From: an uncultured OCS116 cluster bacterium
Lineage (GTDB): Bacteria; Pseudomonadota; Alphaproteobacteria; Rhizobiales; TMED25
Assembly (NCBI GenBank): GCA_902538185.1
Contig: CACBED010000001.1
Span: 1 to 34,194 of the forward strand
Direction of reading: 5' to 3'
Length of the DNA: 34,194 nt
Part shown: in pieces, positions 11,911 to 13,469 of the stretch
Position numbering within the stretch: position 1 is the first letter of the stretch
Layout: each line of letters begins with the position of its first letter
The notes under the pieces: generated by a model
What the model was told of the DNA's origin: nothing
Database searches by the model: none
What the model saw: only the letters and a program-made list of their open reading frames with translations
Translations under genes and position numbers: made by a program

Positions 11911-13113
11911 CTACTCCCTTTCAAAAAATCCAGGGTGCTCTCTATGAACCCCAAAATTTATTATCCTCTTTCCGTAACGCATATTTAAATTATCAATGGA
12001 TGTAGATAATTTTTCTCTAGTATTTTTTTCTCCTGGATGTAAGTTTAATAAGAATTCACCTGACCTATCTTTTAAATAAATTAATCCACTGAGTCTAACG
12101 CCAACAAAGTCTACTTTTTTAGGGTCTAGTGTTAAAATCATTTTATCCCATAGTCCTTTGAATTCTTTCAGGAAAAATAATGTATCTTGGGAGAAGGAAA
12201 AAGTTATAGAGTCCTGCCAAACGCCAATATCACTTAATCTAATAAAGACATCTAGACGGCTTGAGCAATAATTATACTTTCTAATTCGTTCGGTGGATTT
12301 TTCTAATAGCCACCTGCCTACGAGGTAAGCTCTATTCGGAGAGCGGTTCTCCGGTGAAAGAACCTTTGAATTACCGTAGCTACCTCTATTAGACCTATTA
12401 ATAGGAATATTCTCACCTTTCAGAGACCTTACAAATCGCTCGCCCTCTATGGATCTCCAAACCAACCTAGCGTGACGCGGATCCATTTCATGTAAATCTT
12501 TAATAGAGTATATTCTTGCTCCTAAAAGCCTCCTTTTAATGCCCTTGGAAATTCCAGGAAGATCTTCCAAGGATAAATGGTTGATCTTTCCAGGCATATT
12601 CTCTTTACATAACCATTGCAATCCATTTGGCTTTTTTATCTTACCTGCGATCTTCGCCAATAAAGGATTTGGTCCAATACCTATTGACAGTCTTATTTCT
12701 TCCCCAACCTCTTTCCTAATAAGACCCTTTATCTTCATTGATAGATCTACCGCTTTTGAGAGTTTTGAATGACTGTTACCTAGATATATTTGAAACTCAT
12801 CAATGGATCTAACACTTTCCAGCTCAGCTACGCTATCCAGTAAATATGAAATATATCTATTATACTTTGCATATAGCTTATGCCTACTCTGCCTAAAATT
12901 AATAGCTGGACACAAAGTCTTAGCCTCATAAACTCTAGTCCCTGTTTTTATACCATACGCCTTCGCCTCATAACTAGCAGCCACTACACATCCCGAATCG
13001 TTATCTATGGCCGCTACCGCTACAGGCTTATTTCGTAAATTAGGATCTAATTGTTGTTCAATACTTGCAAAAAAGCTATCCATATCAATATATAAGGTTC
13101 TAAAGTTCGTCAT
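11911..13113 (-). CDS. Y-family (DinB/ImpB/UmuC-like) translesion DNA polymerase
   Basis: 400 aa; LYIDMDSFFASIEQQLDPNLRNKPVAVAA, SYEAKAYGIKTG, RSIDEFQIYL, LSIGIGPNPLLAKIAGKIKKPNG, LPGISKGIKRRL HhH. Confidence 0.92.
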   Translation of the reverse strand: MTNFRTLYIDMDSFFASIEQQLDPNLRNKPVAVAAIDNDSGCVVAASYEAKAYGIKTGTRVYEAKTLCPAINFRQSRHKLYAKYNRYISYLLDSVAELESVRSIDEFQIYLGNSHSKLSKAVDLSMKIKGLIRKEVGEEIRLSIGIGPNPLLAKIAGKIKKPNGLQWLCKENMPGKINHLSLEDLPGISKGIKRRLLGARIYSIKDLHEMDPRHARLVWRSIEGERFVRSLKGENIPINRSNRGSYGNSKVLSPENRSPNRAYLVGRWLLEKSTERIRKYNYCSSRLDVFIRLSDIGVWQDSITFSFSQDTLFFLKEFKGLWDKMILTLDPKKVDFVGVRLSGLIYLKDRSGEFLLNLHPGEKNTREKLSTSIDNLNMRYGKRIINFGVHREHPGFFERE

Positions 13114-13145: not shown

Positions 13146-13160
13146 GTTCTTATTTTGTTC
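13146..13160 (+). promoter_or_regulatory. Putative LexA/SOS box of the alphaproteobacterial type
   Basis: GTTC-TTATTTT-GTTC, an exact GTTC-N7-GTTC direct repeat, in the divergent intergenic region between the Y-family polymerase and the ORF at 13167. Confidence 0.8.
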
Positions 13161-13166
13161 TATACT

Positions 13167-13469
13167 ATGGAGAAAAAAAAACAATTAAAAAATGTTGCTT
13201 TTGGAGGTGATTGGTCTGAGAAAAGTTTAGAAGATCATGAAAAAAAAACCTTCTTAAGAAAAATGAATAATATACAAGAGTCTTGCTTCTCAAATGAGAT
13301 AGGAGAGGAGGATCTGCAAGGGGTTTTATACTACATAAGAAATAACTTAGAAAAAGGTCATGTATTTGCAAAATCATTCGAAGAAAAACTTGGAATAAAG
13401 GATCCTTATCTGAGAAAAGTAGAATTACTGAAGACTATAAATAATATAAAAAAATGGCTAGCAGTCTAA
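13167..13469 (+). CDS. Hypothetical protein (~100 aa), putatively SOS-controlled
   Basis: Open frame MEKKKQLKNVAFGGDWSEKSLEDHEKKTFLRKMNNIQESCFSNEIGEEDLQGVLYYIRNNLEKGHVFAKSFEEKLGIKDPYLRKVELLKTINNIKKWLAV; ATG 6 bp after the SOS box. Confidence 0.65.
   Translation: MEKKKQLKNVAFGGDWSEKSLEDHEKKTFLRKMNNIQESCFSNEIGEEDLQGVLYYIRNNLEKGHVFAKSFEEKLGIKDPYLRKVELLKTINNIKKWLAV

Follow-up and report, generated by a model that had tools for sequence, protein, structure and literature searches.

A predicted LexA operator between a Y-family DNA polymerase gene and a divergent small-protein gene in a marine alphaproteobacterial lineage

Genes and features of the locus

The window analysed here, a stretch of 34,194 nucleotides from an uncultured bacterium of the OCS116 cluster, contains a Y-family DNA polymerase gene and a gene for a small protein that diverge from a common intergenic region carrying a predicted LexA operator (Table 1). 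The operator, GTTCTTATTTTGTTC, is the sole exact GTTC-N7-GTTC within the window, and this direct repeat is the alphaproteobacterial LexA operator known, for example, from Caulobacter (PMC12700426). A preliminary description of this DNA had recognized the exact SOS box and placed it 6 bp upstream of the small-gene ATG, both of which hold, and 33 bp from the polymerase start, where the measured gap is 32 bp. The longest reading frame of the small gene begins at a TTG at 13155; homologs start at the ATG, and the gene is therefore taken to begin there. The box spacer includes a -10-like hexamer that ends 10 bp 5' of this ATG, and a similar T/A-rich hexamer is found in the spacers of all nine versions of the box, which keep the pattern GTTC-T-[AT]-[TCA]-N-T-[TA]-T-GTTC. 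LexA bound at the box would cover the hexamer, and the short distance to the ATG suggests a nearly leaderless transcript that LexA could block.

Table 1. Coordinates of the features at the locus within the 34,194-nucleotide window
Feature	Position	Strand	Remarks
LexA operator (SOS box), GTTC-N7-GTTC direct repeat, common to two divergent genes	13146..13160	.	predicted
TATTTT, -10-like hexamer in the box spacer	13151..13156	+	proposed from the sequence
Small protein, 100 aa, undescribed family, predicted four-helix body	13167..13469	+	ATG at 13167; homologs, AlphaFold
Codons of the invariant N-terminal arm QLKNVAFGGDWSE, residues 6-18	13182..13220	+	mostly modelled with low confidence (flexible)
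Y-family DNA polymerase, 400 aa	11911..13113	-	ATG at 13113; catalytic D10, D105/E106 present
RecA-NT-like motif, residues 367-388	11950..12015	-	profile-profile P 1.7e-4
C-terminal tail VHREHPGFFERE, residues 389-400	11914..11949	-	specific to the clade with the small protein

The polymerase has an IMS domain in the Pfam scan and, with its catalytic residues in place, is predicted to be an intact Y-family enzyme. Several named classes were considered and rejected for this protein. The best DinB (Pol IV) score is 161 bits against an equivalog cut-off of 399, and the UmuC (Pol V) score is 74 bits against a cut-off of 431; the Pfam scan detected neither a UmuC C-terminal domain nor an ImuB-C domain, and the intact catalytic residues also speak against ImuB. 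UmuD is absent from 12 of the 13 relatives, in which S24 matches are LexA except for a second fragment in one genome (G004) and one additional UmuD/UmuC-like pair in another (G013). The latter, an S24 peptidase with a Y-family polymerase, lies at a contig end (L129, G013:C48).

The C-terminal region of the polymerase is informative. The segment EKLSTSIDNLNMRYGKRIINFG aligns with the RecA N-terminus of the relatives in a profile-profile comparison at P 1.7e-4, compared with 0.67 for an internal control segment. A RecA-NT motif is described for UmuC, YqjW and others (PMC6511836, PMC12926913), and by this C-terminal feature the polymerase would belong with the RecA-binding PolY group. The motif is followed by a tail, H-x-GFF[ED] (in the form HPGFFExG), that is common to the whole clade of polymerases paired with the small protein; sister polymerases from more distant Rhizobiales, which lack the small gene, have other tails.

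The small protein combines a nearly invariant N-terminal arm (QL-NVAFGG-WSE) with a more variable body, mean conservation being 0.83 over residues 1-18 and 0.46 over the rest. AlphaFold predicts a four-helix body (mean pLDDT 82.8) and a low-confidence arm. Searches of Pfam, NCBIfam, PHROGs and PDB sequences gave no significant match, similarity to UmuD, YolD or ImuB-C was undetectable, and Foldseek comparison of two AlphaFold models with the PDB gave nothing at E <=0.001, the weak matches being generic helical bundles. Two more specific identifications were rejected: the arm is not a canonical beta-clamp motif, as QLKNVAF does not fit QL[SD]LF, and the protein is not a YolD/YqjX small subunit, as it has no Pfam YolD match and its model is all-helical rather than an SH3-type barrel.

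Conservation of the operator and of the gene pair

The preliminary description had regarded the small reading frame as an orphan; it is instead a member of a conserved unnamed family tied to a single polymerase clade. The protein is present in all 14 genomes of the bacterial family, and its nearest named relatives come from marine single-cell genomes and MAGs of the OCS116 cluster, which carry the labels Rhodobiaceae, Rhizobiales, Hyphomicrobiales or TMED25. In one single-cell genome (G002, locus L014) the frame is broken by differences in A-tract length, probably a poly-A length error of assembly or amplification. Elsewhere the protein is rare, occurring in one further genome among 398 of the order and in one of 385 drawn from the class, and it is also found on Rhodobacterales plasmids, in Paracoccus phage vB_PthS_Pthi1 and on seven IMG/VR contigs, the last detected with a broader alignment after a narrower one had given none.

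In 32 of 32 homologous loci, the small gene and the divergent polymerase gene are separated by an intergenic region with an exact GTTC-N7-GTTC. These loci comprise the 14 genomes of the OCS116-clade family, two distant alphaproteobacteria, nine Rhodobacterales plasmids, the Paracoccus phage and six viral contigs. The box occurs in nine sequence versions at 31-42 bp from the polymerase and at 2-6 or 20-28 bp from the small gene, with the 2-6 bp spacing to the ATG in most loci and kept across unrelated sequence backgrounds. AT-rich marine genomes share an identical 15-mer with Roseobacter plasmids despite very different flanks, and when the intergenic regions were shuffled, using one representative per lineage, the motif arose with P 0.000-0.0045 in each. 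This survey started from the box and is by itself biased; however, in the eight loci found through the small gene, with the box not required, neither the box nor the divergent polymerase was missing, and a polymerase-first survey of plasmids gave the same outcome for box and small gene. Some loci are near-identical (e.g. phage Pthi1 and L191), so that the set represents about a dozen independent cases, and in Paracoccus sp. TOH the polymerase is present though its start was not parsed in the survey.

The association of the small gene with the polymerase is equally strict. In every locus found, the small gene diverges from a polymerase of one clade, and the plasmid polymerases that are 52-60% identical to the query were accompanied by it in 10 of 10 cases (eight by tblastn, two by reading). 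In a tree, the partner polymerases group together to the exclusion of seven sister sequences, with support of 100/100 on the separating branch from a bootstrap that had not fully settled. Distances among the polymerases and among the small proteins are correlated (Spearman 0.91), as would be the case for a unit travelling together. In eight of the nine Rhodobacterales plasmid records read (L178-L183, L185, L186), five of which were profile-tested, a gene with an SRAP domain (PF02586) comes after the small gene, and this suggests a plasmid cassette of polymerase, small protein and SRAP protein; the plasmid polymerase is labelled UMUC-like in the record annotation, and no SRAP gene lies beside the window locus.

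Conservation upstream of orthologs, on which the preliminary description had staked its operator, thus extends over all 32 loci and, beyond them, to six of seven distant orthologs. These are sister polymerases beside which no small gene was found, and an exact SOS box precedes six of the seven, compared with one of nine more DinB-like genes. Since the sister polymerases are still boxed, SOS control is probably older than the partnership, and the operator may originally have served the polymerase. Distant Rhizobiales homologs with 32-37% identity (L057-L062), which lack the small gene, have the exact box just before the start codon.

LexA and RecA in the lineage

The source assembly is 870 kb and 53% complete, with family relatives of 0.9-1.6 Mb, and no lexA was found in it. 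The preliminary description had held that absence of lexA from the genome would count against the operator, and this absence is formally true of the assembly but probably reflects its incompleteness. recA, present in the other 13 family genomes, is missing as well, and a 4-kb lexA neighbourhood of one relative (G010), with genes recognized by eye in the translations as moaC, moeA and gltX, has no match whatever in the source assembly. Incomplete assembly is therefore the most likely reason for the gap, rather than a specific loss of LexA.

In the family as a whole, 11 of 14 genomes encode a LexA scoring above the curated cut-off, including every one that is at least 77% complete, and the full LexA proteins retain the Ala-Gly cleavage site and the self-peptidase Ser and Lys, as read from the sequences. 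In seven of seven relatives checked, the lexA start is preceded at a distance of 20-49 bp by an exact GTTC-N7-GTTC, which is probably autoregulatory, and a conserved box with one mismatch (GTAC-N7-GTTC) lies upstream of recA in 13 of 13. The earlier proposals that the repeat is an alphaproteobacterial LexA operator and that SOS control has been kept in this lineage are both supported by these results.

Apart from those at lexA, the only other conserved intergenic exact boxes found in the relatives are beside a dnaE/PLP-enzyme gene pair and a helicase gene. The former (G000:C9:9987-10001, equal to L005:1501-1515; also L083, L090, L091, L097 and L112) is ~240 bp from the DNA polymerase III alpha subunit gene and 58-91 bp from a gene for a cystathionine-lyase-like PLP enzyme, both genes being identified by eye; it is doubled in G003 and G008 and is a possible further LexA target. 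The latter lies 36-44 bp upstream of the helicase gene in three relatives (L096, L119 and L130); the helicase N-terminus, ILGPTNTGKT, appears Suv3-like by eye, and in the source genome itself a box is located where this gene begins (L007:1501-1515).

Interpretation and comparison with known polymerase partners

We propose that LexA bound to the 15-bp site would repress two divergent genes at once, one for a translesion polymerase and one for a 100-aa helical protein. DNA damage would activate RecA, LexA would cleave itself, and both genes would be released together. The polymerase would then bind RecA through its RecA-NT-like motif, as UmuC-type polymerases do, with the clade-specific HPGFFExG tail placed after it, and the small protein would serve as a dedicated accessory subunit with a role like that of UmuD' in Pol V and that proposed for YolD/YqjX in Bacillus, its invariant arm docking into the polymerase and its helical body modulating RecA-dependent lesion bypass. 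We assign this explanation as a whole a probability of about 0.6. That the site is a LexA operator of bidirectional design is very probable, and the divergent arrangement, unchanged in all 32 loci, lends strong support to the earlier suggestion that a single operator could serve both genes.

The rival explanations differ in how much of this design they accept. That the motif arose by chance in an AT-rich spacer would agree with its counts, as 0.63 matches are expected per window and the genome-wide count (7) is below that of a reversed control pattern (32). Abundance of the motif, at or below chance, accordingly gives no support to the operator and enrichment was dropped as evidence, but conservation in 32 of 32 loci in unrelated backgrounds refutes this explanation and leaves it a negligible probability. 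It is also improbable that the operator controls the polymerase only, the small gene being a passenger with its own promoter. The boxes at sister polymerases without the small gene are in its favour, yet in most loci the box is so close to the small-gene ATG, a short gap kept in unrelated backgrounds, and so overlaps the likely -10 element, that bound LexA would have to affect this gene too.

A more serious rival accepts a true bidirectional SOS operator and makes the small protein a separate damage-response effector rather than a polymerase subunit, such as a cell-division inhibitor, or a protein that helps a mobile element to get through the SOS response by modulating RecA or LexA. SOS modulators are common on plasmids, phages and viral elements, where this module also occurs; an invariant arm with a varying helical body would suit binding to any conserved host protein; and the SRAP-domain gene that follows on the Rhodobacterales plasmids would be in keeping with such a role. 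RecA, LexA or the clamp could be the target of the protein in place of the polymerase. Two observations argue against an independent effector, which we consider rather unlikely: the small protein pairs strictly one to one with a single, distinctively tailed clade of polymerases, and its family is fixed next to what is, in 13 of 14 genomes of a streamlined lineage, the only Y-family polymerase found. The accessory-subunit reading has difficulties of its own: a divergent, non-operonic layout would not fix a strict stoichiometry, and the all-helical fold predicted by the model differs from the beta core of UmuD' and YolD (PMC6511836). We nevertheless favour this reading somewhat, as the shared operator, the one-to-one pairing, the flexible conserved arm and the variable body would fit the description of PolY small subunits.

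Taken together, these results suggest that the small protein is an undescribed polymerase partner, part of a three-part unit that is fixed in the marine family and recurrent on plasmids and phages. In this small-genome marine lineage SOS has been kept and the only Y-family polymerase is probably tied to it. There is an even chance that the unit amounts to an undescribed SOS mutasome of RecA, the GFFE-tailed polymerase and the four-helix arm protein, encoded in a portable one-operator cassette that moves on alphaproteobacterial plasmids and phages and became the sole Y-family translesion system of a streamlined marine lineage. If the subunit role is correct, a structurally unrelated helical solution would stand beside UmuD and YolD for the control of error-prone polymerases, and the plasmids and phages would gain a compact mutagenesis cassette.

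Several known systems provide points of comparison. The Caulobacter-type LexA regulon uses the same operator and, as in the relatives studied here, includes lexA autoregulation and a recA site, whereas the present site serves a divergent polymerase/small-protein pair of which we found no description. One of the 11 module types in the main text of PMC12926913 joins a UmuC-like polymerase with an SRAP-related protein; the plasmid loci share the SRAP neighbour, unlike the window locus, so that the polymerase group may already be known, and that main text mentions neither the small protein nor the shared operator. The nearest parallel in the literature is that small subunits (UmuD', YolD/YqjX) work together with those Y-family polymerases that possess both a RecA-NT motif and a conserved tail; according to PMC12926913, Bacillus-type PolY small subunits may have nothing in common except an N-terminal arm that inserts into the polymerase. 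The Bacillus pairs YqjW-YqjX and UvrX-YolD, as described in PMC6511836 and PMC12926913, are SOS-induced, are in some cases located on prophages and are joined through the N-terminal arm in published models. They resemble the present pair in combining a UmuC-like polymerase with a small partner other than UmuD, and differ in that the partner here has a predicted four-helix body instead of an SH3 barrel and is encoded divergently instead of in an operon. With respect to Pol V, there is no UmuD at this locus and the partner is helical, unrelated and divergently encoded, but both systems have an SOS-controlled active Y-family polymerase with a RecA-NT-like motif and a conserved tail, and both have a small protein, here presumably co-regulated, that bears a flexible N-terminal arm.
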